From positions 1 through 36,335 of the forward strand of contig CANIIC010000020.1 of NCBI GenBank assembly GCA_947467395.1: a DNA stretch of 36,335 nucleotides, in the 5' to 3' direction. Positions 10,373 to 28,014 of the stretch are shown in pieces. A model generated the notes under the pieces. The model saw nothing but the letters and a program-made list of their open reading frames with translations. It did not search any database and had not been told where the DNA came from. Each line of letters begins with the position of its first letter. Positions within the stretch are counted from its first letter, which is position 1. This DNA comes from Bryobacterales bacterium. GTDB lineage: Bacteria > Acidobacteriota > Terriglobia > Bryobacterales > Bryobacteraceae. A program made the translations under genes and the position numbers.

Positions 10373-12022
<1,650 letters not shown>

Positions 12023-12028
12023 TTAAAC

Positions 12029-12436: not shown

Positions 12437-12466
12437 TTATTAGCACACTCCGGGGAGGAGTGACAA
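12437..12466 (-). promoter_or_regulatory. Sigma-70-type promoter with embedded CIRCE operator for groESL
   Basis: On the minus strand, -35 TTGTCA (12461-12466) and -10 TAATAA (12437-12442) are separated by 18 bp. Overlapping them on the plus strand, TTAGCACAC (12440-12448), a 9-base spacer and GAGTGACAA (12458-12466) match the CIRCE consensus TTAGCACTC-N9-GAGTGCTAA at 15 of 18 arm positions with the exact spacer. CIRCE is the HrcA repressor site, so groESL should be released from HrcA on heat or unfolded-protein stress. No hrcA gene lies in the window. Confidence 0.85.
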
Positions 12467-12523
12467 TAAGGTTCTGTATATGATTGATTCGTAAAGGAGT
12501 GTAAGTGTAAATCTGGCCGAACG

Positions 12524-13756
12524 CTACTGTAAGACATCCGTCATCTGTTCGATCACCCAGCTTGCTTCTTCCGGGGCAATGCAGTAGGGCGGAAGGAAGT
12601 ACACCACATTGCCGAGCGGGCGCAGCAAGATACTCCGCTTCAGGAATTCCGCCGCGAGTTTGGGGCCCGATTTATCCAGATACCCGCCACCGGACGCGAG
12701 TTCGACCACGCCCACGCCGCCGAGCACTCGAACATCGGCAACATGCGGCAGCTTGCGGAGCCGTTCGAGTCCTTCGCGGAGTTGTTGCTCCAGCTGTGCG
12801 ATCCGTTCGAGCACCGGCTCCTCTTTGAAGATCTCCAAACTTGCGCACGCGACCGCGCAAGCCAGCGGGTTGGCCGTGAAGGAATGCCCGTGGAAGAACG
12901 TCTTCGCTCGATCGTCACTGAGGAACGCGTTATAGATCGCCTCGGTCGTGACCGTCGCACCCAACGGCATGTACCCCGCAGTGAGTCCCTTCGAGAGGCA
13001 GATCAAGTCCGGCGTGATCCCGGCGTGTTCGCACGCGAACATCTTACCGGTGCGGCCGAAGCCGGTGAAGACCTCGTCGGCGATCAGCAGGGCGCCTGTG
13101 CGGTCGCATAACTGACGAACGCCGCGCACGAATTCGGCCGGCCACATGAGCATGCCGCCCGCGCCTTGCAACATCGGCTCGATCAGCACGGCAGCCACCT
13201 CGCCGCTCGACAGCGCGGCATCCATCTGCTCCAGCGTCGCGACGTGAACTATCTCAAACATCAGCGGCTCAAACGCCGCCGTGAAAATACTGCGTCCGCT
13301 CGCGGACATCGCCCCGACCGTGTCGCCGTGATACGCGTTTTCCAGTGCGATGAACTTGCGCCGAGGCTCGCCGCGATTCGACCAATACTGCATTGCCATC
13401 TTCATCGCGACCTCGACCGCCGTCGAGCCGTTGTCGGAGTAGAACACCCGCGCGAGGCCTTTGGGCAGGACTTCGAGCAATCCTTCGGCGAGCTTCACCG
13501 CTGGCTCATGCGTGCAGCCCGCGAAGATCACCTGTTCCAGCACACGCGCCTGCTCGGCCAGCGCTTCATTTAACTTTGGATGCGAGTGCCCATGAATATT
13601 CACCCACCAGGACGAGATCCCGTCCAGGATCTTGCGGCCATCGGCCGTATGCAGCCACACGCCCTCACCACGCACGATCTCCAGCGGCGCGGGCGCCGTC
13701 TGCATCTGCGTGTAGGGATGCCACAAAACTTTGCGATCGCGATCGGCGAGGCTCAT
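12524..13756 (-). CDS. bioA: Adenosylmethionine-8-amino-7-oxononanoate aminotransferase
   Basis: BioA is the PLP enzyme that uses S-adenosylmethionine to convert 7-keto-8-aminopelargonate (KAPA) into 7,8-diaminopelargonate (DAPA) for biotin. The start is the ATG at 13756 (MSLADRDRKVLWHPYTQMQ), overlapping the bioD stop as ATGA; the open frame continues upstream over bioD but that part is antisense-like noise. The 410-residue product shows HPYTQM, WWVNIHGHSHPKLNEALAEQ, DNGSTAVEVAMKMA, YHGDTVGAMS, the PLP aspartate in LIADEVFTGFGRTGKMFACE and the Schiff-base lysine in LICLSKGLTAGYMPLGA. It is last in bioBFDA. Confidence 0.96.
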   Translation of the reverse strand: MSLADRDRKVLWHPYTQMQTAPAPLEIVRGEGVWLHTADGRKILDGISSWWVNIHGHSHPKLNEALAEQARVLEQVIFAGCTHEPAVKLAEGLLEVLPKGLARVFYSDNGSTAVEVAMKMAMQYWSNRGEPRRKFIALENAYHGDTVGAMSASGRSIFTAAFEPLMFEIVHVATLEQMDAALSSGEVAAVLIEPMLQGAGGMLMWPAEFVRGVRQLCDRTGALLIADEVFTGFGRTGKMFACEHAGITPDLICLSKGLTAGYMPLGATVTTEAIYNAFLSDDRAKTFFHGHSFTANPLACAVACASLEIFKEEPVLERIAQLEQQLREGLERLRKLPHVADVRVLGGVGVVELASGGGYLDKSGPKLAAEFLKRSILLRPLGNVVYFLPPYCIAPEEASWVIEQMTDVLQ

Positions 13757-14334
13757 AGTGTGTGTGCGCGCACTCCTTCGGGTGTCAGTGGTTCCATCCA
13801 GGGCAGTTCTTCCACCACCACATCGCCATAGAACTCGATCGCGTCCTTGTTGTCCGGATTCGGCTCGCCCACCATCACGACTTTCTCGACCTCCAGCCCT
13901 TGCGCGCGCAGTGTCTGCAGCGTCATTAGTGTGTGATTGATGGTCCCGAGCGTGGTCCGTGCCGCGACGATTACCGGCAGGTTCAGCATCACCATCAGAT
14001 CGATCATCTTGACCGCATCGTTGATCGGTACCAGCACGCCGCCCGCGCCTTCCACGACCCACTGCCCGGAGAACGGAGCCTGCGCGACGATCGCATCGAC
14101 ATCAATCTCTTTGCCGACGCGTTTCGCGGCGAGATGCGGCGACACCGGATCCGGCAGTCGCTCCCCGCGATCCCAGACGCGGCATCCCGTCAGCCGCGCG
14201 ACCTCGGCTGTGTCACTCTCTGCGCCGGTTTGGATCGGCTTCCAGTAACCCCACCCGCGCGACGATGCCAACACCGCCGCGGTGACGGTCTTGCCTACAC
14301 CTGTATCCGTACCCGTTACGAAGACACCGCGCAT
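13753..14334 (-). CDS. bioD: Dethiobiotin synthetase
   Basis: BioD makes dethiobiotin from DAPA, CO2 and ATP. The Walker A-like loop [19 protein letters not shown] sits at the N terminus, and the substrate motifs include PIQTGAESDTAEVARL and VVEGAGGVLVPIND. I choose the ATG at 14334 (193 residues) because AAAGGG lies just upstream and it places the P-loop at the usual position; a GTG at 14352 would add six residues. The gene overlaps bioF by 19 bp and bioA by 4 bp, so the operon is translationally coupled. Confidence 0.94.
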   Translation of the reverse strand: MRGVFVTGTDTGVGKTVTAAVLASSRGWGYWKPIQTGAESDTAEVARLTGCRVWDRGERLPDPVSPHLAAKRVGKEIDVDAIVAQAPFSGQWVVEGAGGVLVPINDAVKMIDLMVMLNLPVIVAARTTLGTINHTLMTLQTLRAQGLEVEKVVMVGEPNPDNKDAIEFYGDVVVEELPWMEPLTPEGVRAHTL

Positions 14335-15398
14335 TTCGCCCTTTCTAAACACGCCACGAAGCGATCCAGGATGGCTTCGCTCAGATTCACGTTCAACGAG
14401 ACCCGCAATCGCGATGTCCCGACTGGAACCGTCGGCGGTCGAATGGCGCGCACGTCGAATCCATCGTGTTGTAGCACCTCCGCTAGCCTCACGGCGCGGT
14501 CGTTATCGCCGACCATAATCGGAAGAATTGGCGAATCACTCTCCGGCATGCCGAGCTTCGCCCGTAGATAGCGCGCTAGTTCGCGAAGCCGCGCGCGGCG
14601 CTCGGGTTCGGCGGCGATCACATCCAGGCTCGCCTCCAGCGCAGCCGCTACTGCCGGAGGCGGTGCCGTGGAGAAGATGAACGTTCGCGCTCGCTGGACC
14701 ATGTACTCGATTGCCCAAGCCGGCCCGCACACAAACGCACCAGCGACCCCCAGAGCCTTGCCCGCTGTGTTGATGGATAGGAACGGATCGATGCCGGTTT
14801 CTTCGACCAGCCCTGATCCACGTGCTCCGTACAGCCCCACGGCATGTGCTTCATCCACGATGAGATTGGCGCCCACGTTGGCCAGTTCACCCAGCGGAGC
14901 GCGGTCTCCGTCCATGCTGAACAGCGATTCGGTGACCAGGAACTGACCCTGCGCCGCAGGCACCGTCGCGTGTGGATACACCTGCCGCGTCGCGCGCGAC
15001 AATCGCACTCCATCGATCAAGCTCGCATGGTTCAGTTCGTCCGAATACACCACGTCGCCTTGCTCGGGAAACGTGGTCAATACCGCGAGGTTGGCCAGGA
15101 AGCCGCTCGAGAAATAGAGCGCCCTTTCGGTGCCTTTGAATCTTGCGAATCGAGTCTCAACGGCCTCGAAGCACTCCCGATCTCCGCGCAACAAGCGCGA
15201 ACCGGTGCTCCCCACACCGAGTTGACGAACCGCCTCTGCCATCCGCTCCTTGATAAGAGGATGCGAAGCGAGGCCCAAGTAATCGTTCGATGAGAGATCG
15301 ACGCCCGAAGGTGGCCGCATGACGCGGCGCAGCCCGGTGCGCTCAATCTCTGCGAGATGCGCGCGTACCCGGGCTTCGAGTTCTTTAGTTCCCGACAT
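14316..15398 (-). CDS. bioF: 8-amino-7-oxononanoate synthase (KAPA synthase)
   Basis: BioF condenses pimeloyl thioester with alanine to form KAPA. The 360-residue PLP enzyme shows [31 protein letters not shown], the ring-stacking region [47 protein letters not shown] and the lysine motif [16 protein letters not shown]. This operon has no bioC or bioH/bioG, so pimelate priming must be encoded elsewhere. It overlaps bioB by 14 bp and bioD by 19 bp. Confidence 0.95.
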
Positions 15399-16350
15399 TC
15401 GCGGGTTGCAGTGTGACCCCGAGCTTCTGGAACAACGCCTGATCCGTGTCTTGTTCCGGGTTCGGCGTGGTCAGCAACTTCTCGCCGAGGAATACCGAGT
15501 TCGCGCCCGCCAGGAAGCACATCGCCTGGGCTTCATCGCTGAGCGACATGCGGCCCGCGCTGAGACGCACCATCGATTGCGGCATCAGAATACGCGCCGT
15601 CGCGATCATGCGCACCAGTTCGAGCGGGTCCTCTTTCGGACGGTCCGCCATGGGCGTCCCCTCAACCGGCACCAGCAAATTGACCGGGACACTCTCCGGA
15701 TGCGGCGTGAGGTTCGATAATTCCCGCAGAAGGCCGTAGCGCTGGGTGCGGCTTTCGCCCATCCCGATGATGCCGCCACTACACACCGTGATTCCCGCTT
15801 GGCGCACGCGAGCCAGGGTATTCAAGCGATCCTGATACGTGCGCGTGGTGATGATATTGCCGTAAAACTCGGGCGACGTGTCGAGGTTGTGGTTGTACGC
15901 GCTCAAGCCTGCATCGGCCAGCGCCTGTGCCTGTTCCTCATTCAGCATGCCGAGCGTGCAGCACGCTTCCATTCCGAGCTCACGAACACCGCGCACCATG
16001 TCCAGCACGCGCTCGAAGCGTCCGTCCTTTGGAACATCGCGCCATGCTGCGCCCATGCAGAAGCGCGTCGCGCCCTGCGCCTTGGCCGCGCGCGCGGCCT
16101 CCAGCGTTTCGTCGAGCGGCATCAGCGGCTGATGATCCACATGCGTGTCGTAACGCGCCGACTGCGGACAGTAGCCGCAATCCTCCGGACATCCGCCCGT
16201 CTTGATCGAAAGCAACATGCAGCCTTGCACTTGATTGGGCGCGTGAAACTCCCGATGCACGGTCGCGGCGCGATACACCAGCTCCGTCAGCGGCAGCGTG
16301 TAAATCGCTTCAATTTCGGGGAGGGTCCAATCATGACGAAGTGACTGCAT
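15385..16350 (-). CDS. bioB: Biotin synthase
   Basis: BioB is the radical-SAM enzyme that inserts sulfur into dethiobiotin. The 321-residue product carries the SAM-binding cluster [11 protein letters not shown] (CxxxCxxC, about residues 56-63), followed by [59 protein letters not shown] and GGIIGMGES. The Arg ligand region ([16 protein letters not shown]) for the auxiliary [2Fe-2S] cluster is intact. GAGGGAA precedes the ATG at 16350. It is first in bioBFDA and divergent from the RsbW-like gene; no BirA-like palindrome is evident. Confidence 0.97.
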
Positions 16351-16416
16351 TTCCCTCTATTCTAGAACGCGGGCAGCCTCCGCCGACGCGCGTTGTATAC
16401 TCGGAACTTATCCTGC
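16351..16416. promoter_or_regulatory. Divergent promoter region bioB / RsbW-like gene
   Basis: The 66-bp gap separates bioB (minus) from the anti-sigma-type kinase (plus) and must carry both promoters unless transcription enters from elsewhere. A TATACT hexamer (16395-16400) could be a plus-strand -10 and TAGAAT on the minus strand (near 16359-16364) a -10 for bioB, but neither has a good -35. Confidence 0.3.
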
Positions 16417-16845
16417 GTGAGTTCTTCAACCCCAGCCGCTATTCGCCTACGTAACGAAACGGCCGAACTGGCCCGGCTGAGTGCGTTCATTTCCGAATTC
16501 TGCGAGCGCGAAGAACTGCCTCCGGATTTCGACATGGCTCTGAATCTGGTCGCCGAAGAGGCCTTCATGAATGTGGTGATGCACGGCTTCGAACAGCAAG
16601 GCGGGAACGAATTGTCCTTTACTCTGACGCGGGACGAACAGGCTGTGACGCTGATCGTTGAAGATTCGGCGAAAGCGTTCAATCCTCTGGAAGCCCCTGA
16701 ATTCGACCCGGCTACGCCCATCGAGCAACGGCGCGCCGGAGGACTCGGAATTCACCTGCTGCGCAATCTCATGAGCGAACTGAAATACGACCGCGTCGAC
16801 GGCCAGAACCGCCTGACCATGCGCAAACTCATCCCTTCTAAATAA
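16417..16845 (+). CDS. RsbW-like anti-sigma factor serine kinase (HATPase_c_2)
   Basis: This 142-residue single-domain GHKL ATPase belongs to the SpoIIAB/RsbW anti-sigma kinase family, whose members bind a sigma or output protein and phosphorylate a STAS antagonist on serine. The start GTG (MSSSTPAAIRLRNET) is preferred; an upstream TTG at 16393 would add eight residues. The N box is NLVAEEAFMNVVMHGF and the G2 box is RRAGGLGIHLLRNLMSE. The G1 box is degenerate (VEDSAKAFNP, where a Gly is usual), so ATP binding might be altered. No sigma factor is adjacent; three STAS proteins lie in the same gene run and are its likely partners. Confidence 0.88.
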   Translation: MSSSTPAAIRLRNETAELARLSAFISEFCEREELPPDFDMALNLVAEEAFMNVVMHGFEQQGGNELSFTLTRDEQAVTLIVEDSAKAFNPLEAPEFDPATPIEQRRAGGLGIHLLRNLMSELKYDRVDGQNRLTMRKLIPSK

Positions 16846-16860
16846 GGATCCATCATCGCT

Positions 16861-18831
16861 ATGACGGCCGTACGTTATTTTCGCCACTTGATCCTCGGGC
16901 TGCTGCTGATTGCGGCGACGTCTTCGGTGCTGCTGTTTTCTGACTGGAGCCAGCGGCGCTCCGGCGACACCAAGATCCCTCGCATCGCGGTCCTGCAGCA
17001 TGCCTCACAAGCGGCTCTGGATGACGGTGTTTCCGGGATGATCGACGAACTTGCCGCCCAAGGCTTCATCGATGGCAAGACCGCGGTGATTCAGAAATTT
17101 AACGCCCAGAACGATCTGACCACGGCCAATTCGATCGCGAAGCAAGTGGTGAGCGGCGACTTTGACTTGATCCTCACCTCCAGCACGCTCTCGATGCAGA
17201 CTGTCGCCAACGCCAACAAGAATCGCGGCGTCAAGCATGTCTTCGGCATTGTGGCCGACCCACTCCACGCCGGGGTGGGCATCAACCCGGAAAACGGGGC
17301 AGACCATCCTCCTTATATGACCGGCATCGGCAGCCTGATTTCGGTGGAGCGCGTGTTGCAGCAGGCCAAGGAGCTGTACCCGGGCCTTTCGAAGATTGGA
17401 TTGGCTTGGAATGCCGGTGAGTCGAATTCTCTGACGTACACCAAAGCGACCCGCGCGGCTTGTATGAAGCTGGGCCTCACGTTACTGGAAGCGAACGTCG
17501 AGAGCACGTCCGCAGTCAGCGAGGCTGCGAACTCATTGGTGTCGCGCGGGGCCGACGCTCTACTGTTGACTGGCGACGTCACGGTCCTGGTGGCCTCGGA
17601 CGCGGTGGCCGCAGCGGCGAAGCGTGGCCACATTCCCGCGTTCTCGGTCATTCCGCCCAATGTGAAGAAGGGCATGCTGTTCGACATCGGCGCGAACTTC
17701 TATGAGGTAGGCCGCCAGATCGGCGATCTCGCCGCCAAGGTCCTGCGCGGCACGAACCCGAAGGACGTTCCGGTCGTCAACTCCGTGCCGGAGAAAATCG
17801 CAATCAACACCACGGCGCTCGCGGGCTTGAAGGCACCGTGGAAGTTGCCGGAATCCTTCCTGGCGCGTGCGGCTCTGTTGATCGACGAGGCTGGCATCCA
17901 CGATAAGGCCGCGCCAGTGCAGAGCACCCGCAATTACAAGATCGGGATCGTTTACTTCGCTCCCGAAGAAGGCGCGGATACGGCGCTGCGCGGCTTGGCC
18001 GATGGCCTGAAATCGCAGGGGCTTGAGGAAGGCAAGAACTTACAGGTGCTGCGCTCGCACGCACAGGGTGAAATCGCCAACATTCCCGCGCTGCTGCAGA
18101 ACTACGATAGCCAGGATGTGGATCTGATCGTGACGCTCACCACGCCGTGTCTCACCGGAGCTTGCTCCGTGGTGAAGAAGAAAAACGTTGTCTTCCACTA
18201 CGTCTACGATCCGATCGCGGCCGGAGCAGGGAAGTCTCGCGAGGATCATCTCCCCAACATCACCGGCGTAGGTTCGTTCCCGCCGGTCAATGACACCGTC
18301 ACCACGATTCAGCAATTGGTTCCGGGCGTGAAGAAGGTCGGCACTTTGTACAACAGCTCAGAAGCGAATTCACGCAAGGTGATGAGCGTCGCGCGCGAGG
18401 CGTTTTTAAAAGCAGGGATTCAACTCGAAGAAGTGACGGTGACTTCTTCGAGTGAAGTCTTGCAGGCAGCGCAGACACTGCAATCGCGCGGCATCCAGGC
18501 GATGTGGGTTACCGGCGACAACACTGCGTTGCAGGGCTTCACGGCCATCGGCAAAGCGGCGCGCGATGCAAAGTTACCGCTCATCATCAATGATCCGGAG
18601 TTCACCGGCAAAGGCGCCGCGGTCGCTGTTGGGTTGGGCTGGTACGAATCTGGCCTGGCAGCGGGGAAGATCGCGGGACGAGTGTTGCATGGAGAGAAGC
18701 CCGCGGCCATCCCGTTTGAAGAAGTGGCCGTGCAGCAGTTGGTGATCAACGACGACGCGGTTGCTCGGCTCAACCTGCGCGTTCCCCCTGCGATGAGTCA
18801 GAAGGCGACCCACGTGAAGGACACCAAGTAA
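16861..18831 (+). CDS. Membrane-anchored substrate-binding protein with two tandem ABC_sub_bind domains
   Basis: The 656-residue product starts with an N-terminal hydrophobic anchor or uncleaved signal (FRHLILGLLLIAATSSVLLF) and then carries two copies of the ABC_sub_bind (COG2984, TrpX-like) fold, about residues 38-330 and 358-650. The halves align: TGIGSLISVERVLQQAKEL with TGVGSFPPVNDTVTTIQQL, and SKIGLAWNAGESNSLTYTKA with KKVGTLYNSSEANSRKVMSV. Usual family members are about 320 residues with a single domain, so this is a duplication/fusion. Known relatives bind aromatic amino acids or related ligands; the ligand here is unknown. Permease and ATPase genes for this transporter class follow, interrupted by a STAS gene. 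Confidence 0.9.
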   Translation: MTAVRYFRHLILGLLLIAATSSVLLFSDWSQRRSGDTKIPRIAVLQHASQAALDDGVSGMIDELAAQGFIDGKTAVIQKFNAQNDLTTANSIAKQVVSGDFDLILTSSTLSMQTVANANKNRGVKHVFGIVADPLHAGVGINPENGADHPPYMTGIGSLISVERVLQQAKELYPGLSKIGLAWNAGESNSLTYTKATRAACMKLGLTLLEANVESTSAVSEAANSLVSRGADALLLTGDVTVLVASDAVAAAAKRGHIPAFSVIPPNVKKGMLFDIGANFYEVGRQIGDLAAKVLRGTNPKDVPVVNSVPEKIAINTTALAGLKAPWKLPESFLARAALLIDEAGIHDKAAPVQSTRNYKIGIVYFAPEEGADTALRGLADGLKSQGLEEGKNLQVLRSHAQGEIANIPALLQNYDSQDVDLIVTLTTPCLTGACSVVKKKNVVFHYVYDPIAAGAGKSREDHLPNITGVGSFPPVNDTVTTIQQLVPGVKKVGTLYNSSEANSRKVMSVAREAFLKAGIQLEEVTVTSSSEVLQAAQTLQSRGIQAMWVTGDNTALQGFTAIGKAARDAKLPLIINDPEFTGKGAAVAVGLGWYESGLAAGKIAGRVLHGEKPAAIPFEEVAVQQLVINDDAVARLNLRVPPAMSQKATHVKDTK

Positions 18832-18840
18832 GGGATCCAG

Positions 18841-20073
18841 ATGGAAATCAACAAACAGCACGTGGAGGGATTCCTGGAGGTCCGGGCCACCGGCCGCCTC
18901 GACGCCCATTGGGCGGACCACCTCTCGAAGGCGCTTGAGGAGATCATCCGGCAGGGCGATGACCGCATCCGGATGAACCTGCGTGGCGTCGACTACATCA
19001 GTTCCATGGGGATCCGGGTGCTGGTGACGTTCTACCAGAAGCTGCTCGCGATCAACGGCGCGTTTATTGTTGTGGATCCGTCTGAGGCCGTCGAGAAAGT
19101 GTTGGAGATGGTCGGCCTCAAGGCCACCTTGATGGCGTCGACTCCCTCCGCCCTCGAACAGGCCGCGCCCGAACCCACGCGTCAGATCGAACGAGCCACC
19201 GCGCGCATGGACGTGTTCCGGCTGTCCGGTGGCGGCGAAGTTTCCTTCCGATCGGTGGGTGACTCGTCGCGGATCGCTGCCGGCTACTCGGCCGCCGACT
19301 GTCAAACAGTGAACTTCCCGGAGAGTTCCTTCGGTCTCGGACTAGGCGCCTTCGGAGCCAACTTCGAAGAAAGCCGCAATCGTTTCGGTGAGTTCCTGGC
19401 CGTCAGTGGCGCCGCAGCGTATCAACCTTCAGATGGCTCGAACGCACCGGACTACCTGCTGGCCGAAGGCTCCTACGTCCCCGAACTGCAGGTCCTATAC
19501 GGGTTGGTCTGCCAGGGGTCGTTCCAAAGTCTGGGCCGGTTCGAAGTGAACGGTGACGCTCGAGCCGTCGGGCTTTCGACGCTGGCGGACATGGCGCTGG
19601 AAGCGTCCGGAGCCGAGCAGGCTACCTTCGTGATGGTCGGCGAATCTGCGGGCTTGGTGGGCGCATCTTTACGCAAATCGCCTGTACAAGATGGCAAGCC
19701 CGTCTCACTCTTCTCCCATCCTGAAATCCGCACGTGGCTTTCGTTCACCACCGAGCGCGCCTTCAGCCGAGCATTGACCGTCGCCGTGGGTGTGATCGCA
19801 CGCCGGCCCGAAGCGGCGTTGGCTCCGTTGGTGCGGCCCCTGTATGGACCGGATTCCGTGCTTGGACACGTCCACGCCGCTGCGTTTCCGTATCGGCCGC
19901 TGCAGCGCGGGAGGATCGACCTTCGCAAGACCGTGCGCCTACTGTTCGAACAAGAGAGCTTACTCGGACTTCTCCATCTACTCGGCGACGACCGCGGTTC
20001 AAGTGGCGTCTCTGAGAGTGAATTCGTCCGCGGAGCATGCTGGATCGCGCCGTTGAAGGCTGCCCGCCCGTAA
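18841..20073 (+). CDS. STAS-domain protein with unrecognised 300-residue C-terminal region
   Basis: Residues 1-105 form a STAS (anti-anti-sigma) domain, with the putative phosphoacceptor serine in NLRGVDYISSMGIRVLV. The remaining 300 or so residues match no family I recognise; they include FPESSFGLGLGAFGANFEESRNRFGEF, a Gly/Ala-rich soluble region with no membrane helix, and a closing RGACWIAPLKAARP. The gene starts nine bases after the binding-protein gene and precedes the permease, so it is embedded in the transporter operon. I infer that the STAS part interacts with the RsbW-like kinase at 16417 and that the C-terminal region is the output or transporter-coupling part. Confidence 0.8.
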   Translation: MEINKQHVEGFLEVRATGRLDAHWADHLSKALEEIIRQGDDRIRMNLRGVDYISSMGIRVLVTFYQKLLAINGAFIVVDPSEAVEKVLEMVGLKATLMASTPSALEQAAPEPTRQIERATARMDVFRLSGGGEVSFRSVGDSSRIAAGYSAADCQTVNFPESSFGLGLGAFGANFEESRNRFGEFLAVSGAAAYQPSDGSNAPDYLLAEGSYVPELQVLYGLVCQGSFQSLGRFEVNGDARAVGLSTLADMALEASGAEQATFVMVGESAGLVGASLRKSPVQDGKPVSLFSHPEIRTWLSFTTERAFSRALTVAVGVIARRPEAALAPLVRPLYGPDSVLGHVHAAAFPYRPLQRGRIDLRKTVRLLFEQESLLGLLHLLGDDRGSSGVSESEFVRGACWIAPLKAARP

Positions 20074-20089
20074 CCGAGGATCAATCAAC

Positions 20090-21028
20090 GTGACACTACT
20101 CATTGGCGCACTGACGATCGGCTTCATCCTCTCGCTGCTTGCACTCGGCGTTCTGATCAGCTTCCGTATCTACTCGTTCTCGGACATCACCGCAGAGGGC
20201 TCGATTACGCTGGGCGCGGCCGTGGCGGCGACCCTGCTCACCAAGGGCACGAATCCACTGCTGGCGACCGGTATCGCTGTCTTTGCTGGGATGCTGGCAG
20301 GGGCGTGCACCGGCATCCTCCACACACGCTTCAAGATCAACGGACTGCTCTCCGGCATCCTGGTGATGACCGCGCTCTATTCCATCAACCTCCACATCAT
20401 GGGGCGCAGCAACGTGCCCCTGCTTTCGGCGACCACTCTCATGACGTGGGCTGAGGGTGCCGGCAACGGGCTGTTCGGTGGCGCCGAAAATATCAACGTG
20501 GCGGGTTGGGAAGTCAGCGCTCGCGAACTGTCTGTGCTCGGCTTCAGCTTCCTGGCGGCTGCGCTTGTCGGGATCATTCTGTACATCTTCTTCCGCACGG
20601 ACCTGGGAACCGCCATGCGCGCGACCGGCGACAATCCGCAGATGGTCCGCGCCATGGGGATCAGCGATGGCAACATGATCGTGTTTGGATTGGCCGTTTC
20701 AAATGGCCTCGTCGCCTTGTCGGGAGCACTGCTCGCCCAATATCAGGGTTTCTCCGACGTGCAGATGGGCATCGGCATGTTGGTCTGGGGCCTCGCCAGC
20801 GTGATCATCGGCGAAGCGCTTGTCGGGCTGAAGCAACTGAATCTGCTGATCACCGGCGCACTGATGGGCTCTGTCCTCTTTCGATTGCTGGTCGCCATTG
20901 CACTTCGATGGGGCATGGACCCCAACGATCTAAAACTCATCACCGCGGTCTTCGTGTTCCTGGCGCTCATTGTTCCGGGCCTGATCGCCAAAGCAGGATG
21001 GAAGAAAGTGGGGGTGCGCAATGCTTGA
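20090..21028 (+). CDS. ABC transporter permease (COG4120/TrpY-like, BPD_transp_2)
   Basis: This 312-residue protein with eight or so hydrophobic segments is of the branched-chain/sugar permease type seen in TrpXYZ-like importers (LISFRIYSFSDITAEGSITLGAAVAATL, KINGLLSGILVMTALYSINLHIMG, MRATGDNPQMVRAMGIS, LIVPGLIAKAGWKK). MRATGDN...AMGIS is the cytoplasmic loop that contacts the ATPase. Translation starts at a GTG with GAGGATC upstream. The stop overlaps the ATPase start by eight bases. With the duplicated binding protein and ATPase it would make a complete importer. Confidence 0.92.
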   Translation: MTLLIGALTIGFILSLLALGVLISFRIYSFSDITAEGSITLGAAVAATLLTKGTNPLLATGIAVFAGMLAGACTGILHTRFKINGLLSGILVMTALYSINLHIMGRSNVPLLSATTLMTWAEGAGNGLFGGAENINVAGWEVSARELSVLGFSFLAAALVGIILYIFFRTDLGTAMRATGDNPQMVRAMGISDGNMIVFGLAVSNGLVALSGALLAQYQGFSDVQMGIGMLVWGLASVIIGEALVGLKQLNLLITGALMGSVLFRLLVAIALRWGMDPNDLKLITAVFVFLALIVPGLIAKAGWKKVGVRNA

Positions 21029-21833
21029 GTTGACCGGAGTTCGCAAGACCTTCAACGCAGGAACGCCCAACGAAGTCCGTTCCCTGCAAGGCATCGACCT
21101 CAAACTGGATGAAGGCTCCTTCGTCATCGTCATCGGCACCAATGGCTCCGGGAAATCGACGCTATTGAACGCCGTCGCGGGAACCTTCTTTGTTGACGAA
21201 GGCTCGATCCGCCTGGCCGGCCACGATACGACGCGCTGGCCGGAGCACAAACGCGCGCAGTTGATCGGTCGCGTGTTCCAGAACCCCTTTAGCGGCACGG
21301 CCCCGGAGCTTTCTATCGCCGAAAACCTGGTCTTGTCCGCACGTCGCGGTCAAAGCCGAACCCTCGGTTGGGCTCTGAACGCATCGCTACGCGAGCAAGT
21401 CTTCGAAACCGTGAAGAGCCTCGGCATGGGCCTGGAAAACCGTCTCGACAACGCCATCGGTAGCTTGTCCGGCGGCCAGCGCCAAGCCCTGACCTTGCTG
21501 ATGTCGACGTGGCTCAAACCGAAATTACTGCTGCTCGACGAACACACCGCTGCGCTCGATCCGAAAAGCGCGGACCAAATCATTCAACTGAGCGATCAAG
21601 TGATCGCGCGCGATAAACTGACGACGCTCATGGTGACCCACTCGATGCATCAAGCGGTCAACTTGGGCGACCGCCTGATCATGATGCACCGCGGCCAGAT
21701 CATCTGCGATTTCCGAGGTGCGGAGAAGCGCCGGCTGCGCGTCGACGATCTGCTGAACCGCTTTGAAGAAGTCCGTCGCGGCGATTTGTTGGATGAGACT
21801 GCGGCCGAGATGCTGCAGCGCACTTACGTCTAA
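21021..21833 (+). CDS. ABC transporter ATPase (COG1101/TrpZ-like)
   Basis: The 270-residue nucleotide-binding subunit shows Walker A GTNGSGKSTLLN, Q-loop GRVFQNPFSGTAPELSIAENL, signature SLSGGQRQALTLLMSTWLKPKLLLLDEHTAALDP (LSGGQ and Walker B) and H-loop VTHSMHQAVNLGDR. The LLDEHTAALDPKSA form is typical of the ATPase that accompanies COG2984 binding proteins. It overlaps the permease gene. A 61-bp gap with a strong Shine-Dalgarno (AGGGGAGG) then leads to the second STAS gene. Confidence 0.93.
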   Translation: MLELTGVRKTFNAGTPNEVRSLQGIDLKLDEGSFVIVIGTNGSGKSTLLNAVAGTFFVDEGSIRLAGHDTTRWPEHKRAQLIGRVFQNPFSGTAPELSIAENLVLSARRGQSRTLGWALNASLREQVFETVKSLGMGLENRLDNAIGSLSGGQRQALTLLMSTWLKPKLLLLDEHTAALDPKSADQIIQLSDQVIARDKLTTLMVTHSMHQAVNLGDRLIMMHRGQIICDFRGAEKRRLRVDDLLNRFEEVRRGDLLDETAAEMLQRTYV

Positions 21834-21894
21834 GGCAGCTTGATCAGACCCGCATGCTAGAATCACGACTTACCCACGTCAGGGGAGGCAATCT

Positions 21895-22209
21895 ATGGAG
21901 ATAAAACAGGAATCGCGCGGTGGCTGGTGTATTGTTGCCGTCACGGGGCGCGCGGACGCGACCACGGCGGATGCGCTGGAAGCCGCTCTCGTGTCCGCTG
22001 TGCAGGCCAACGCGAAAGTAGCGGTCGATTTTTCTGGGCTCGACTACATCTCGAGCGCTGGTCTGCGCTCGATCCTTCAAGGCGCGCGAGCCGCCCAGGA
22101 GAGTAAGGCCGAATTCATGGTTTGTGCGCCCAAGCCCAACACCAAAACTGTATTGGATGTGAGCGGTATGCAGCACGTCGTCCGGATCGAGGCGAACCTC
22201 CCATGCTAA
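21895..22209 (+). CDS. STAS-domain anti-sigma factor antagonist
   Basis: This 104-residue single STAS domain belongs to the SpoIIAA/RsbV class. The opening EIKQESRGGWCIVAVTGRADATTADALEAAL and the phosphorylation-site loop DFSGLDYISSAGLRSILQ (acceptor serine the second S of ISS, by alignment with SpoIIAA Ser58) are intact. Its start is preceded by AGGGGAGG and its stop overlaps the GPP34 gene by seven bases. I infer that it is a substrate of the RsbW-like kinase at 16417, in a partner switch with the other two STAS proteins. Confidence 0.92.
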   Translation: MEIKQESRGGWCIVAVTGRADATTADALEAALVSAVQANAKVAVDFSGLDYISSAGLRSILQGARAAQESKAEFMVCAPKPNTKTVLDVSGMQHVVRIEANLPC

Positions 22210-22853
22210 CGATGCTTGAAGAAGTGGTTCTGCTGGCGGTCGATGAACAGACCGGCCGCGTGCAGACTTCGCAGGGGTATGGCACCGGTTACGCGCTCGC
22301 GGGCGCTGTATTTTTTGACCTGGCTCTGGCCAAGAAAATTGACACAGACACCGATAATGTCTTGATCCTGGACCCGACCCCGACCGGCATCGCGGTGCTC
22401 GATAAAGCTCTGTTGACGATGGCGAAGCACCCGGACAAGAAGACCGTTCGCTCTTGGATCGAAGAATTAAAGAGCTTGGATCAGGAACTGGAAGAGGCCG
22501 CCCTGCAACTGTTGGTGGAACGCGGCGTGCTCCGTCATGAAACCAGCAAGCGCCTGTGGATCATCGACGTGGAACGCTTCCCCGTGGTGGACGACAAGCC
22601 GCAGCGCCACGTGAAGCTTCGTCTGGCGCAGGCCATTCTAGGGGACGAGATTCCGGACACCCGCGACATCATGTTGGTGAGCATCGCCGAAGCCTGCGGC
22701 CTGCTGAGCCTGGTCCTGCAGCCGCATGAATTGGAGCTTCGCCGTCAACGCATCGATATGTTGTGTGGCCTGGAGACCATCAGCCGTACCGTGAAAGCCG
22801 CGATCGACGATCTGTACCAGCACATCCGCAGCGCCTCGATCCAACCGATGTAG
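22203..22853 (+). CDS. GPP34 (Golgi phosphoprotein 3-like) family protein
   Basis: This 216-residue protein matches the GPP34/GOLPH3 family: MLTMLEEVVLLAVDEQTG, YALAGAVFFDLALAKKIDTD, a central helical block with LELLVERGVLR-like ALQLLVERGVLRHE, and DIMLVSIAEACGLLSLVL near the C terminus. In eukaryotes the fold binds phosphatidylinositol 4-phosphate at membranes; bacterial members are common in actinobacteria and scattered elsewhere, with unknown roles. Here it is sandwiched between two STAS genes (overlapping the first by 7 bp, 6 bp from the next), so it may be a membrane-associated output of the switch. Function is inferred only from context. Confidence 0.85.
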   Translation: MLTMLEEVVLLAVDEQTGRVQTSQGYGTGYALAGAVFFDLALAKKIDTDTDNVLILDPTPTGIAVLDKALLTMAKHPDKKTVRSWIEELKSLDQELEEAALQLLVERGVLRHETSKRLWIIDVERFPVVDDKPQRHVKLRLAQAILGDEIPDTRDIMLVSIAEACGLLSLVLQPHELELRRQRIDMLCGLETISRTVKAAIDDLYQHIRSASIQPM

Positions 22854-22859
22854 GTCTCG

Positions 22860-23198
22860 ATGACCCTCACCCAAACTACTGTTGGCGACGTGGAAATCGT
22901 TCACGTCCAGGGGCGTCTGGACGCCCAGACCGCACCAGAGCTCGAAGCCGTCGTCCAAGCGGTTCTCGATGCCGGCGCTCGCAAACTCTTGCTCGATTGT
23001 CAGGGCATGACCTACGTCAGCAGCATGGGCCTGCGTGTGTTTATGGTGGCGGGGAAGCTGCTTGGCGCGCGCGATGGTGTCCTCGCGTTCGCCAGCCTGA
23101 ATCCTCAGAACAGCCAGATTTTTGAGATGACCAGTCTGTCGAAACTCTTCCCTTGCTTCGCCGACAAGGATGCCGCGCTGTCCGAACTCGGGAAATAG
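22860..23198 (+). CDS. STAS-domain anti-sigma factor antagonist
   Basis: A third STAS protein, 112 residues. It shows TTVGDVEIVHVQGRLDAQTAPELEAVV and the acceptor-serine loop DCQGMTYVSSMGLRVFMV, then NSQIFEMTSLSKLFPCFADKDAAL, all typical of RsbV/SpoIIAA proteins. It is the last gene of the run that begins with the RsbW-like kinase; the next gene starts 176 bp later. Three STAS proteins with one kinase suggest competing substrates or a graded switch. Confidence 0.92.
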   Translation: MTLTQTTVGDVEIVHVQGRLDAQTAPELEAVVQAVLDAGARKLLLDCQGMTYVSSMGLRVFMVAGKLLGARDGVLAFASLNPQNSQIFEMTSLSKLFPCFADKDAALSELGK

Positions 23199-23199
23199 T

Positions 23200-23254
23200 C
23201 TCGGAGGTCGGTCAGTTCGCTCGTGCGCGGCCGACGCCATGGTGACCCTCCGAG
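23200..23254 (+). terminator. Imperfect inverted repeat after the STAS/ABC run
   Basis: CTCGGAGGTC (23200-23209) can pair with GACCCTCCGAG (23244-23254) with one bulge, enclosing a smaller GTCGG/CCGAC pairing. It starts two bases after the stop codon at 23198 and lies in the 176-bp gap before the next gene. There is no U-tract, so it may be a weak terminator or RNA-stability element. Confidence 0.4.
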
Positions 23255-23374
23255 TCGACATTCTAGAGTGAAGGGATCTTCGACCTAAAGAACCTTACGA
23301 TCTCTGGAATCAGCGGTTCGGAGGAACTACACTAGATCTAATCTTGAGAGGCGCATTCAAAACGGGAGCCACGG

Positions 23375-26300
23375 ATGGCGAAGCGCGTTAAGAACACTGT
23401 CATCGCTCGCCGGGCCAAGGCGGAACTGCCACCTTTGGAAACCCCAGTCATCGTAGGCATCGGCGCCTCAGCAGGTGGCCTGGAGGCGTTCACTCAGTTG
23501 CTGCAAGCGCTTCCGGCGAACACCGGGATGGTGTTCGTGCTGGTGCAGCACTTGGAACCCAAGCACGAGAGCGTGCTAACCCGGTTACTGGCCAAAGAGA
23601 CCAAGATGGCGGTCCTGGAAATTCAGGACGGCGTGCGTGTCGAACCGGACCACGTGTATGTACTGCCGTCGAATACGGATGTGCTGCTTGAAGGCGGGGT
23701 CCTGCGCTTGGTGCCCCGCAAGGCGGCCGCTGGGCATCATTTGCCGATCGACAGCTTCTTCCGATCTCTGGCCGAGGCGCAAGGCGTTCGCTCAATCGGC
23801 GTCGTTCTTTCCGGAACAGCTTCGGATGGCACTGTTGGGCTGGGAGCGATTAAGTTGGAAGGCGGCTTTACGCTGGCGCAGGATCCGGAGACCGCGAAGT
23901 TTGACGGGATGCCGCGCAGCGCCATCGCGGCGGGGTGTGTCGACCTGGTTCTTCCACCAGATCGCATCGCCAAGGAATTGGTGCATATCTCTCACCATCC
24001 GTTTGTCCGCTTGGCGCCGATCGAAGGTGTCCCGGTCATTCCGGCGGAGGATGAAGATTGGCGCCGGTTCTTCCGGATGCTGCGCACTAATTCCGGAGTT
24101 GATTTTTCGCGTTACAAACAATCTACCATCCGGCGTCGTCTGGCACGGCGGATGGCGTTGCACAAAGTGGAAGATCTGAAGTCCTACCTGAAGGTTCTCG
24201 ACACCACGCCCGAAGAGACGGATGCGTTGTTCCAGGAAATCCTCATTCATGTGACTTCGTTCTTTCGGGATCCCGAAGTCTTCGTCGCTCTGCGGGAACA
24301 CATTCTGCCGCAGATTTTCAAAGAAAAAATGGCAGGTGAGGCGCTCCGTATCTGGGTGGCTGGCTGCTCCACCGGCGAAGAAGCGTATTCCATTGCGATC
24401 TGTGCGGTGGAGTATCTGGACCAGCAGCATGCCTCTTTCCCGATCCAGATTTTTGCGACGGACATCAGCGAGACTGCGATTCAGAAGGCTCGCTTGGGGA
24501 AGTATTCGACGGAGGCTTTGGCGGGCGTGTCCAAGGAACGCCTGCGCCGGTATTTCACGGCGGTGAATGGCGAGTATCAGATCAACCACGACCTGCGCGA
24601 CATGTGCGTGTTCGCCCGTCATGATGTCACCAAGGATCCTCCGTTCTCAAAATTGGATCTGATCAGTTGCCGCAATGTCCTGATCTACTTTGAATCGGCC
24701 TTACAGAAAAAGGTGTTGGGCTCCTTCCACTACGGCCTGAAGAGCACGGGCCTGCTGCTGTTGGGGAAATCCGAGAGCCTCAGCGCGCATACGGATCTGT
24801 TCACCATCCAGGACAAGAAGAACAAGGTGTTCTTCAAGAACAATGCGGTGGCCGTTCCACTGAGCGTGGCGAGGCCACAACTGGAAGCCGCCAAGCTTGA
24901 AACCAAGCCACAACGTCCGTTGATCGGTCAGGATTTGGAGCGGGAAGCCGACCGGATTGTGTGGGAACGTTATGCGCACGCAGGCCTGGTGGTGAATCAG
25001 GATCTGCAGATTCTTCACTTTCGCGGCGACACCAGTCCCTATCTGCGTCCCGCGCCGGGTCGCGCCACGTTCCAATTGCTGCGGATGGTGCGCGATGAAT
25101 TGTCCCTGGAGTTGCGCGCCGCTGTTCAGGAAGCCCGTAAAACGGGCCGCAATGTTCGGAAAGAAGGGGTGCAGCTGAAGCAGGATGGACAAGTGCGGGT
25201 GGTGAACTTGGAAGTTCGCCCGATGCCCGTGTCGGGGGAGCGCGAAAGATCGTTCCTCATCCTGTTTGAAGACTCCGGTTTGCGGGATGAAAGCACCCCG
25301 AAGCCCCGGCTATCTGTCCGGAAGCGGGGTCAGGTTCGGGATGAGGAACTGCTCAGCGCCAAAGCGGAACTGGCCAAGGCTCGCGAGTACGTGCAGGCGG
25401 TTCTTCGCGATCAGGACGCCACCAACGAAGAACTGACGACGGCGAACGAAGAGGCTCTTTCCAGCATGGAGGAGCTGCAAAGCACCAATGAAGAGTTGGA
25501 GACCGCGAAGGAAGAACTTCAGTCCACCAACGAAGAACTGATCACGCTGAATGAACAGCTCCAGAACCGGAATACGGAACTGGGCCGCCTCACCGACGAT
25601 TTGACCAATGTGCTGAATGGCGTGAACATCCCGATTCTGATCCTGAACAAGGATCGGCGCATTCGGCGCTTTACGCCTCCCGCAGAGAAGTTGTTGCGCC
25701 TGCTGCCGGGCGACGTCGGACGCCCCATCGGGGACCTCCGCATCGGGATTTCGATTCCGGACATGGAAACGTTGATCACGACCGTCGTCGAAAAAGCGCT
25801 GGAAGTCCGGCGCGAAGTGCAGGGCGACGAGGACCGACGCTGGTACATGCTGTCGATCCGGCCTTTCCGCACGTCGGGGGGCAAGGTGGACGGTGTCCTC
25901 ATGGCCTTCGTGGACGTGGATCAGCTGAAGCGCGAGCAGGATTCGCTGCGGCGCGAACGCGACATCAATTCATCCATTCTGGAAGCTGCCAAGGACCTGC
26001 TGGTGATGGTGGTGGATGCCAAAGGCCGGATCGTTCATCTGAATAGGGTGGCGGAGCGGGTGACTGGATACGCTCTCAAGGAAGTGAGGGGGAAAGCGTA
26101 CACCTGCTTGCTGGTGCCTGAAGAGAGACCAGGCAGCCTCGACATTATCACGAACGTTTTAAAAGGTGAATCAATCCGGCGCGAAGGTCACATTCTCACG
26201 AAAGACGGGCGACGAGTGACCATCAGCGGTTCGATGGGGACCGCCACCACGGATCGAGACGTGCAGTACGTGATCGCCACCAGCATCGACATTACGGAAA

Positions 26301-27382
26301 TGCGGGAGATCGAAGGTCGTGCCGCCGACACCGATGCCGCGATGCGGGCGCTGTTGGAAAATGCGGCCCAAGCGATTCTGGCCATCGATCAACGGGGGGA
26401 GATCGTCCTGGCGAACGCGGCAGCGGAGGCGATGTGCGGGTACGACCGGTCCGAACTCATCGGCCAGCCTCTGTCGCGACTGGTGCCCACCAACGCTGTG
26501 GCCAGACACGCGGTCCACGTATCCCGCTGGTTCCGAGAGCCGATGCGCCGCCCCATGGGCAAGGGCGGGGAGTTGTTCGGACTGCGCAAGAATGGGACCG
26601 CGTTTCCTGTCGAGGTCAGCCTGAGCTCTGTCGAAACGCGCGACGGAATCCTGGGCGTTGCATTTATTTCGGACATCAGCGAGCGGCGGAAGAACGAATT
26701 GTCGTTGCAGACGTACCATACGCAGCTACAGCAACTCACGGCGAACCTGATTTCCAGCCAGGAAGGCGGGAACCGGGAACTTGCCCGCGAGCTGCATGAC
26801 GTGTTCAGTCAGGAATTGGCGGCGGCGAGCATGGAAGTGTCCGCGCTGCTGGCTTCCGCCGATCAAGGCGGTCCCTTTGCCGAGCGGTTGAAGTCCGTGG
26901 GAAACCGGATCGCGCGACTGGCGGAGGACATCCATGGAACTTCACGCCGGCTGCATCCTGCGATTCTGGACGATCTGGGTTTGCCGACTGCTCTGCGTGA
27001 GGAATGCAGGAGTTTCCAGCAGCAGGTGGGAATTGCCGCGGACTTTGCCAAACAGAACCTTCCGGAAATCCTTCCCAAAGACGTGGCACTGTGTCTCTAT
27101 CGCGTGGCCCAGGAAAGTCTGCGCAACATCCGGAAGCATTCGCAGGCAACCCACGTACATGTGCAGTTGGCCGGCACCCCGTCGGCTGGGCCCCCGGATG
27201 GAATTCTGCTCCGGGTTGTGGATGAGGGGAACGGGTTCGAACTGGAGCAGGCGCTGAAGAAAGGCGGCCTGGGGATCATCAGCATGGAAGAACGTGTACG
27301 ATTGCTGGGTGGCCAACTCACCATTCACTCGCAACCGGGCTTAGGGACCACGGTGATGGCTTCGGTTCCTTTGACATCATGA
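23375..27382 (+). CDS. CheB-CheR-coiled coil-PAS-histidine kinase hybrid
   Basis: This 1335-residue multidomain sensor starts with a CheB methylesterase (about 23-205; GIGASAGG, VQHLEP, SGTASDGT carry the Ser-His-Asp triad). A CheR methyltransferase follows (about 220-490; HVTSFFRDPEVF, AGCSTGEEAYSIA, LISCRNVLIYF). A coiled coil with heptad-like NEELxTxNEEL repeats covers about 680-735. Three PAS domains lie near 738-848, 862-978 and 988-1105. The kinase end is of HisKA_3 type (NRELARELHDVFSQEL, H near 1140) with a HATPase (VAQESLRNIRKHSQ, GGLGIISMEERVRLLGG). No receptor or membrane segment is present. The stop overlaps the LuxR regulator (ATGA, 27379-27382), a natural partner. Confidence 0.94.
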   Translation: MAKRVKNTVIARRAKAELPPLETPVIVGIGASAGGLEAFTQLLQALPANTGMVFVLVQHLEPKHESVLTRLLAKETKMAVLEIQDGVRVEPDHVYVLPSNTDVLLEGGVLRLVPRKAAAGHHLPIDSFFRSLAEAQGVRSIGVVLSGTASDGTVGLGAIKLEGGFTLAQDPETAKFDGMPRSAIAAGCVDLVLPPDRIAKELVHISHHPFVRLAPIEGVPVIPAEDEDWRRFFRMLRTNSGVDFSRYKQSTIRRRLARRMALHKVEDLKSYLKVLDTTPEETDALFQEILIHVTSFFRDPEVFVALREHILPQIFKEKMAGEALRIWVAGCSTGEEAYSIAICAVEYLDQQHASFPIQIFATDISETAIQKARLGKYSTEALAGVSKERLRRYFTAVNGEYQINHDLRDMCVFARHDVTKDPPFSKLDLISCRNVLIYFESALQKKVLGSFHYGLKSTGLLLLGKSESLSAHTDLFTIQDKKNKVFFKNNAVAVPLSVARPQLEAAKLETKPQRPLIGQDLEREADRIVWERYAHAGLVVNQDLQILHFRGDTSPYLRPAPGRATFQLLRMVRDELSLELRAAVQEARKTGRNVRKEGVQLKQDGQVRVVNLEVRPMPVSGERERSFLILFEDSGLRDESTPKPRLSVRKRGQVRDEELLSAKAELAKAREYVQAVLRDQDATNEELTTANEEALSSMEELQSTNEELETAKEELQSTNEELITLNEQLQNRNTELGRLTDDLTNVLNGVNIPILILNKDRRIRRFTPPAEKLLRLLPGDVGRPIGDLRIGISIPDMETLITTVVEKALEVRREVQGDEDRRWYMLSIRPFRTSGGKVDGVLMAFVDVDQLKREQDSLRRERDINSSILEAAKDLLVMVVDAKGRIVHLNRVAERVTGYALKEVRGKAYTCLLVPEERPGSLDIITNVLKGESIRREGHILTKDGRRVTISGSMGTATTDRDVQYVIATSIDITEMREIEGRAADTDAAMRALLENAAQAILAIDQRGEIVLANAAAEAMCGYDRSELIGQPLSRLVPTNAVARHAVHVSRWFREPMRRPMGKGGELFGLRKNGTAFPVEVSLSSVETRDGILGVAFISDISERRKNELSLQTYHTQLQQLTANLISSQEGGNRELARELHDVFSQELAAASMEVSALLASADQGGPFAERLKSVGNRIARLAEDIHGTSRRLHPAILDDLGLPTALREECRSFQQQVGIAADFAKQNLPEILPKDVALCLYRVAQESLRNIRKHSQATHVHVQLAGTPSAGPPDGILLRVVDEGNGFELEQALKKGGLGIISMEERVRLLGGQLTIHSQPGLGTTVMASVPLTS

Positions 27383-28014
27383 CGCCAGTTCGTATCTTGC
27401 TCGCCGATGACCATCCCGTTGTGCTGGACGGCTTGGTGCGGATTCTGGACCGGCCGGAACTGGAGATCGTGGGTGCGGTTCCCGATGGTCAGGCTCTGGT
27501 GGATGCCGCCGTGGAGCGACAGCCGGATCTGATCCTGCTGGATATTTCGATGCCCGTACTCGGCGGTATGGACGCAATTCGCCGCCTTCGCAAGCTGGGC
27601 GTGCCGAGCAAGATCATCGTTCTCACCATGCACTCGGGAATCCCGTATGCAGTGGAGGCTTTACGGGCGGGAGCCTCCGGCTACCTTCTCAAGAGCTCCT
27701 TTGGCGACGAACTGATGCAGGGGATTCGAGAGGTTTTGGACGGGCAGACCTTTATCGCCGAAGCCATCCGCCAGCCGGTCCTCTCCGCACTGGAAGGGCT
27801 TCCCGGGAAAGGTGCCATTCCCCTGACGCCCCGGCAGCGGGAAGTCTTACGGCTGCTGGCCCAAGGGTTGCAAGCCAAAGAAGTGGCGGATAGATTGAAT
27901 ATTTCTCCCAAGACCGTAGAATTTCACAAGCAGCAGATGAAGCAGCTGCTCGGAATTCAGACCGTCGCCGAACTCGGCGTCTATGCGGCCCGCAACGGGA
28001 TCCTAGAGTCATAA
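27379..28014 (+). CDS. NarL/FixJ (LuxR-type) response regulator
   Basis: This 211-residue regulator has a receiver domain with ADDHP, phosphoacceptor Asp near 55 in LILLDISMPVLGGMDAI, the VLTMHS switch and LLKSSF lysine. The C-terminal LuxR helix-turn-helix is LTPRQREVLRLLAQGLQAKEVADRLNIS followed by PKTVEFHKQQMKQLL. It overlaps the CheBR-PAS-kinase gene by four bases, and HisKA_3 kinases normally pair with NarL-type regulators. Its targets are not known, but the region just downstream has two dyads with TACG/CGTA half-sites. Confidence 0.94.
   Translation: MTPVRILLADDHPVVLDGLVRILDRPELEIVGAVPDGQALVDAAVERQPDLILLDISMPVLGGMDAIRRLRKLGVPSKIIVLTMHSGIPYAVEALRAGASGYLLKSSFGDELMQGIREVLDGQTFIAEAIRQPVLSALEGLPGKGAIPLTPRQREVLRLLAQGLQAKEVADRLNISPKTVEFHKQQMKQLLGIQTVAELGVYAARNGILES

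Follow-up and report, generated by a model that had tools for sequence, protein, structure and literature searches.

A run of partner-switching, ABC importer and GPP34 genes in an acidobacterium and the conservation of its core in other bacterial phyla

The gene run and its products

The window analysed here is the whole contig CANIIC010000020.1, 36,335 nucleotides long, from the 4.07 Mb, 278-contig genome of a Bryobacterales bacterium (Acidobacteriota; GCA_947467395.1). It carries eight tightly packed genes, all on the + strand, at positions 16417-23198, which bring together partner-switching proteins, an ATP-binding cassette (ABC) importer and a GPP34 protein. All genes of the types named in the original prediction, made from the sequence alone, are present at this place and are supported by Pfam. 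They encode, in order, an RsbW/SpoIIAB-type serine kinase (16417..16845; GHKL, HATPase_c_2, PF13581, 1.5e-23), a tandem-duplicated TrpX-like substrate-binding protein (16861..18831; ABC_sub_bind, PF04392, in two stretches, 1.2e-97), a protein that we name STAS-C (18841..20073; STAS, PF01740, 6.9e-17, residues 3-96), a TrpY/COG4120-like ABC permease (20090..21028; BPD_transp_2, PF02653, 1.1e-25), a TrpZ/COG1101-like ABC ATPase (21021..21833; ABC_tran, PF00005, 3.9e-27), a stand-alone STAS protein paired with GPP34 (21895..22209; STAS_2, 7.7e-16; PF13466/PF01740; acceptor Ser54), a GPP34 protein of the GOLPH3/Vps74 family (22203..22853; PF05719, 1.2e-40) and a second stand-alone STAS protein (22860..23198; PF01740, 1.6e-16; acceptor Ser55). 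The gaps from the kinase gene through the first stand-alone STAS gene measure 15, 9, 16, -8 and 61 bp. The GPP34 gene starts at ATG 22203, within the 3' end of the preceding STAS gene, and is followed by a gap of 6 bp. The system is real, conserved and, as far as searched, undescribed; its parts and its logic have precedents. As the original prediction held, no described system with this combination was found in the literature searched, mostly outside subscription journals.

Two initiation codons are possible for the kinase gene, TTG 16393 and GTG 16417, the latter suiting the amino-termini of homologues better by eye. Among solved chains, the kinase is closest to RsbW (6m36) and SpoIIAB. Its PF13581 match is above the cut-off and the NCBIfam equivalog cut-offs for RsbW/SpoIIAB are not attained. 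Two strong PF13581 matches are found in the window genome (93 and 83 bits, the operon kinase being the 83-bit one), besides 13 weaker ones. The G1 box has the form DxA in all six kinases of clusters that combine the ABC module with GPP34 (the window and related loci L098, L099, L102, L103 and L104; two lineages only) and the form DxG in the ten other aligned kinases, among them that of L060, a locus with GPP34 and no STAS-C. The acceptor-serine loops were predicted to be intact in all three STAS proteins of the window; this was confirmed, the second serine of each loop aligning with the acceptor position of SpoIIAA.

The binding protein has 3lkv, 3lft and 6hni as nearest solved relatives, which bound phenylalanine, tryptophan and tyrosine according to the available part of PMC6816091. 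Its score against the TrpX NCBIfam equivalog, 312 bits, is below the cut-off of 390. Its N-terminus, like that of most homologues, has a hydrophobic stretch and lacks a lipobox cysteine; in many cases the stretch ends in 'LLxSD' (by eye, uncounted). This suggests membrane tethering: the double binding protein is probably held at the membrane by a signal-anchor. The binding-protein gene of L079 (4984-7977) codes for 997 amino acids that apparently comprise three ABC_sub_bind-like units. The Walker A, signature, Walker B and H-loop motifs of the window ATPase are all intact. None of the eight proteins has an MCE domain among its listed Pfam families (for the ATPase, the best 25 of 28). PADLOC returned nothing for the seven operon proteins submitted, the ATPase not being among them. 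An Rfam scan of positions 15000-24000 found no family, T-box included, at its gathering score, and counts of promoter-like and terminator-like sequences are at the level of shuffled sequence. The window genome has one GPP34 gene and one permease gene of the operon's type.

STAS-C and the conserved importer core

STAS-C is the hallmark protein of the system. Its residues 1-108 form the STAS domain, with acceptor Ser55, and the predicted structure of this part matches RsbV/SpoIIAA and, more weakly, MlaB. Residues from about 110 to 410 form a second domain, and Pfam detects nothing in these ~300 residues. The extension of the protein called 'STAS-Cterm' in the original prediction can now be given a predicted fold. 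AlphaFold2, with 35 sequences, gave a mean pLDDT of 90.9 and a pTM of 0.84 for STAS-C, and 92.5 and 0.92 for the C-terminal domain alone. This domain is predicted with high confidence to adopt the acetolactate decarboxylase (ALDC)/PTD012 fold. Among the families listed by VIA-align, it matches acetolactate decarboxylase 6j92_A at 2.9 A over 202 residues with a Z of 17.3, and human PTD012 (C11orf54; 1xcr_A) with a Z of 14.5; next come 3htn, a putative DNA-binding protein (9.3), and 2dt4, a PPC protein (7.2). Foldseek gives these matches moderate TM-scores of 0.42-0.48 by query length, and the best ALDC match by this method is 5yho_A (6.2e-6; TM 0.47 by query length). A profile comparison with one acidobacterial ALDC (L159) yielded no similarity and no alignment, so the relation to ALDC is one of fold.

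All 35 aligned STAS-C sequences have Ser54, Ser55, H343, H345, H379, E184, E268, D204, D383, E394 and R397 in common. By eye, only H379 coincides with the HxH of enzyme L159, the other two histidines lying in the putative preceding strand. The metal site of ALDC is made of three histidines (HxH plus a further one), of which the three invariant ones of STAS-C are only candidate counterparts. Plasmids gave just two partial STAS-C matches, both over the STAS part. Distant STAS-C paralogues followed by permeases were seen at L127 and L128, in genomes (G081 and G122) that each also carry a typical STAS-C. An apparent natural fusion of STAS-C to the permease in L080 was rejected, as an assembly gap of N had been read through.

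A single STAS-C profile scan of named genomes provided the 40 related loci considered here. They span Acidobacteriota, Planctomycetota, Verrucomicrobiota, two metagenome-assembled genomes labelled Deltaproteobacteria, one labelled Proteobacteria, and one 'uncultured bacterium'; L084 is apparently the contig of genome G037 again, and the five Verrucomicrobiota loci are close kin, not independent. When called by rule, a permease gene follows STAS-C in 38 loci (the L080 permease lies behind the N-gap and L096 meets a contig end), an ATPase gene follows STAS-C/permease in 37, and a binding-protein gene is adjacent to STAS-C in 35. Inspection traced the exceptions to contig ends (L077, L084, L088, L090, L096), the N-gap of L080 and misses due to overlapping open reading frames (ORFs) in L079 and L081. 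Contig ends and gaps aside, the loci all have the core of binding protein, STAS-C, permease and ATPase, most commonly in this order; the binding protein comes after the ATPase in L083, L089, L107, L108 and L109. The link of a STAS protein with the transporter is conserved across phyla. Conservation of the full eight-gene order, which the original prediction had proposed to check, was found in none of the 40 loci: the core and other parts recur, and the ABC and STAS-GPP34 modules are separable. The alignment (A2), the STAS-C tree and the serine and histidine counts comprise 34 of the 40 loci and the window, L080, L084, L090, L094, L102 and L108 being left out as gapped, fragmentary or not chosen; a further alignment (A4) comprises 30 loci and the window.

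GPP34 and the two modules

The window GPP34 protein scores 140 bits against PF05719 (cut-off 29.1), with Vps74 and GOLPH3 as nearest solved chains. In the alignment with Vps74, ALRG ('YALRG') is replaced by ALAG, an Arg to Ala change. Phosphatidylinositol 4-phosphate is bound by Trp/Arg residues in GOLPH3/Vps74, and the replaced Arg may be one of these. Across the 61 genomes compared, GPP34 relatives are present in 16 and strong STAS-C matches (>100 bits) in four (G000, G006, G011, G037), the remaining STAS-C matches, of at most 33 bits, reflecting the STAS domain. In G037, of another family, one contig carries RsbW, a binding-protein gene in pieces and the beginning of STAS-C, and a second contig has STAS-C, permease and ATPase.

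Such distributions bear on the view that the ABC module and the STAS-GPP34 module are two unrelated operons placed side by side by accident. Within the genus of the window, the two modules lie on separate contigs in G006, while G011 carries RsbW, the binding protein, STAS-C, the permease and the first part of the ATPase with no GPP34 match, and GPP34 occurs with no STAS-C found in the genome in G001 (STAS, GPP34, RsbW) and G010 (STAS, GPP34). The 61-bp gap between the modules in the window, and the lack of a STAS called beside GPP34 in G103, G128 and G301 (L150, L152, L157), three of the five genomes that have STAS-C as well as GPP34, also fit this view. Against it, all five Verrucomicrobiota loci (L098, L099, L102, L103, L104; four labelled Opitutae, Opitutia or Opitutaceae) share the order binding protein, STAS-C, permease, ATPase, RsbW, STAS, GPP34, REC, REC-SpoIIE (Pfam confirmed REC-SpoIIE in all five and the single REC in L099 only), and occupy a separate place in the tree. 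In this maximum-likelihood tree of 35 STAS-C sequences, GPP34 loci fall in two places kept apart by starred branches, as set against the other RsbW-linked rows, so GPP34 linkage either arose twice or is ancestral and was often lost. The tree does not contain L102 and carries a long-branch warning where the Verrucomicrobiota loci meet L107/L109. Moreover, among 396 Acidobacteriota genomes, STAS-C occurs in 11, GPP34 in 34 and both in five, a co-occurrence above expectation (5/11 versus 34/396; hypergeometric p 0.001, or 0.006 without the window genome and 0.03 with one genus also collapsed, otherwise without correction for kinship). We consider an accidental neighbourhood very improbable.

A STAS gene adjoins GPP34 also in G081 (L131) and in genus g100 (at least in L132, L133, L140 and L141), where it was called after GPP34 in four of the 14 loci L132-L145, overlapping frames having been chosen in some others. 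The gene before GPP34 in g100 encodes a nucleobase permease (PF00860 in L133, with ten more alike), whose C-terminal domain matches the RsbW profile with a score of 39.3 (E 6e-6 with two paralogues added; best of 60 column shuffles 17.8); a direct hhalign run without the paralogues is weak (E 0.014, probability 3%). By eye this domain has no N-box Asn, and it is probably no working kinase. Permeases with such a degenerate RsbW-like C-terminus (L132-L145, L175-L179) number 1 to 4 per genome in 20 genomes of one genus, and some stand beside GPP34 and STAS. The g100 arrangement is a lead for a 'transporter plus switch plus GPP34' combination in a second transporter class. In another acidobacterial family GPP34 is fused to a cytochrome P450, as confirmed by Pfam in L009, most others of L006-L020 having an ORF of similar length.

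Downstream of the gene run, and omitted from the original prediction, a CheB-CheR-PAS-HisKA_3 histidine kinase gene (23375..27382, + strand) begins 176 bp past the last STAS gene and overlaps a LuxR-type response regulator gene (27379..28014, + strand), which matches Sigma70_r4_2 through its helix-turn-helix only. Both were identified by Pfam and are a possible input to the system, as candidate members only. A sigma-54 activator gene (PF00158) follows at 28862-29947. Just before the operon, the minus strand at 10373-16350 carries groEL/groES-like genes and a biotin-synthesis-like run, named from their translations only.

Inputs, proposed mechanism and known systems

Of the 40 related loci, 13 have an RsbW kinase gene no more than 6 kb from STAS-C. 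Ten of these 13, and no others, also have a SpoIIE phosphatase within that distance, and in each of the ten Pfam confirmed one or more SpoIIE domains. The 22 loci with more than 4 kb upstream and more than 3 kb downstream include nine with RsbW and nine with SpoIIE. RsbW linkage is found in several well-supported STAS-C subclades (Verrucomicrobiota; L083/L089; L073/L079; L078/L081; the window with L071). The original prediction that neither a sigma factor nor a SpoIIE-type phosphatase adjoins the genes is right for the window operon; in relatives SpoIIE does adjoin, and six PF07228 matches, five of them strong, lie elsewhere in the window genome. No sigma factor was seen in the operon or among the neighbours of related loci, where Pfam was run on a selection of genes; an unlinked sigma factor may still be a target. 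The phosphatases carry diverse sensor domains: dCache-HAMP-SpoIIE in L076, sCache-HAMP-SpoIIE and a second, GAF-linked SpoIIE in L078, GAF-SpoIIE in L079, REC-SpoIIE beside REC-CheB in L083 and L089 (L083 also having a CheA-like hybrid), REC-SpoIIE together with a Cache/PAS hybrid kinase in L099 and L102, and REC-SpoIIE in L098, L103 and L104. In L073 a Cache-HAMP-HisKA_3 kinase adjoins kinase and STAS; a profile label of 'CheBR' for this protein was rejected after Pfam analysis.

The original prediction had left two directions of control, the ligand feeding the switch or the switch gating the transporter. The second now fits better, as the sensor domains of the phosphatases vary and the transporter is constant: signals would enter through the phosphatases, and the transporter with STAS-C would be the output. 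In the reverse direction, transporter and binding protein would act as a sensor whose ligand or flux is relayed via STAS-C to the RsbW kinase, with the target elsewhere (a sigma factor, GPP34 or a cyclic di-GMP enzyme). The doubled and probably membrane-tethered binding protein, the presence of GPP34 and of the histidine kinase/response regulator pair downstream, and a second domain of STAS-C that could transmit a signal are consistent with such a sensor. It would, however, be redundant, because the phosphatases of relatives bring their own, different sensors; the scanned neighbours include no sigma factor, and the ATPase has all its motifs intact, as a working importer would. We regard a sensing transporter as rather unlikely.

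The cluster is read instead as a putative, undescribed partner-switch-regulated ABC importer, whose principle resembles that of MlaFB and to which GPP34 adds an accessory branch. We give an about even chance to the specific proposal, the likeliest of the readings, that the partner switch gates the importer directly and post-translationally. In such a mechanism the RsbW-type kinase would phosphorylate the STAS proteins, and sensors outside the operon in the window, or on the adjoining SpoIIE-type phosphatases in relatives, would set their phosphorylation state. STAS-C would be the coupling subunit, its unphosphorylated STAS domain docking on the ATPase or permease as MlaB does on MlaF; additionally or instead, this domain may be captured or phosphorylated by the kinase. 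Phosphorylation of Ser55 would thus switch assembly or activity of the importer. The ALDC-fold domain may be a cytosolic ligand-binding or enzymatic part reporting on the imported compound, and the tethered double binding protein would deliver the substrate, perhaps an aromatic-amino-acid-like one. The STAS, GPP34 and STAS genes would form a second branch of the same switch, with GPP34 maybe as a membrane adaptor.

Several findings weigh against direct gating. The G1 box of the window kinase reads DSA, and ten other aligned homologues have DxG, so that its activity is not certain; no SpoIIE match lies on the window contig. RsbW is absent within 6 kb in 27 of the 40 loci, some on short contigs, and 13 of the 22 well-flanked loci have neither kinase nor phosphatase nearby. 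Two Planctomycetaceae loci (L087, L093), with about 8 kb on both sides, have no RsbW and keep the acceptor serine, so a kinase would need to be encoded elsewhere. The serine pair of STAS-C could also be kept for structural reasons. Alternatively, STAS-C might serve the importer constitutively, as a structural or enzymatic subunit, with the kinase, STAS and GPP34 genes belonging to another switch that is often nearby. The STAS-C and ABC cores without linked RsbW, the STAS-GPP34 pairs in genomes without STAS-C (G001, there with RsbW, and G010) and MlaB, which works without a known kinase in the accessible part of PMC7367683, all agree with a constitutive role. The recurrence of RsbW linkage in several subclades (one ancestral linkage with losses would also account for it), the differing gene arrangements and the rarity of strong RsbW matches in the window genome argue against it, as does the order in L083 and L089, where REC-SpoIIE, RsbW and STAS precede STAS-C, permease, ATPase and binding protein. 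We hold such a constitutive subunit to be unlikely.

A kinase/phosphatase switch of a kind best known from sigma factors is clustered with an importer, and this cluster is kept across several bacterial phyla, which suggests that phosphorylation may serve bacteria to turn certain importers on or off. For MlaB, the question has been raised whether phosphorylation controls the STAS proteins of ABC transporters (PMC7367683, as far as accessible). It becomes directly testable here, since transporter, STAS subunit, kinase and, in relatives, phosphatase are encoded in one cluster. If true, the proposal would also provide a concrete context for bacterial GPP34 proteins, on which we found little in print, and a regulatory use for the ALDC fold. 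A broader idea, that partner switching is a general gate of bacterial transporters, acting on an ABC importer via a STAS/ALDC-fold subunit and, in another acidobacterial genus, on a nucleobase permease via a fused, degenerate RsbW-like domain, with GPP34 as a shared adaptor holding or sorting the transporter at the membrane, is doubtful.

Each part of the system has known counterparts. The predicted fold of the C-terminal domain of STAS-C is that of acetolactate decarboxylase and PTD012; unlike the enzyme, it is fused to STAS and its histidine pattern differs by eye. The GPP34 domain is shared with GOLPH3/Vps74 and with Streptomyces SCO4440, a bacterial GPP34 protein mentioned in the available part of PMC12402492, and differs here in its linkage to STAS and RsbW genes. 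A PF04392 binding protein and the three transporter parts in one operon recall the TrpXYZ and CD0873-type importers of aromatic amino acids, TrpX, TrpY and TrpZ being encoded by a three-gene operon in Streptococcus suis (PMC9382623, from the text at hand). In contrast to TrpXYZ, the binding protein is doubled and probably signal-anchored, and the STAS-C gene is inserted between binding protein and permease.

With the SpoIIAB/SpoIIAA/SpoIIE and RsbW/RsbV/RsbU switches the system shares an RsbW-type kinase, STAS proteins with an acceptor serine and, in relatives, SpoIIE. Partner switching also has a non-sigma version, SypE/SypA. Unlike in the sigma-type switches, the constant partner here combines an ABC importer and a STAS fusion protein, joined by GPP34 in some lineages; no sigma factor was seen among the tested neighbours. 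In the accessible text of a review on STAS-only proteins (PMC8256260), the terms 'ABC transporter' and 'MlaB' do not occur. A parallel in principle is MlaFB/MlaFEDB, where a STAS protein is likewise encoded together with an ABC ATPase and is bound to it. According to the part of PMC7367683 available, T52 at the acceptor site of MlaB lies near the centre of the interface with MlaF and the T52E change weakens binding; its authors left phosphoregulation of MlaB open and suggested similar regulation more broadly in the ABC family. MlaFEDB is an MCE lipid transporter with an MlaE-type permease and MlaD, whereas the present system has a binding-protein-dependent importer of the BPD_transp_2 type (PF02653), in which the STAS domain is fused to a predicted ALDC-fold domain and is linked to a kinase and, in relatives, to a phosphatase.

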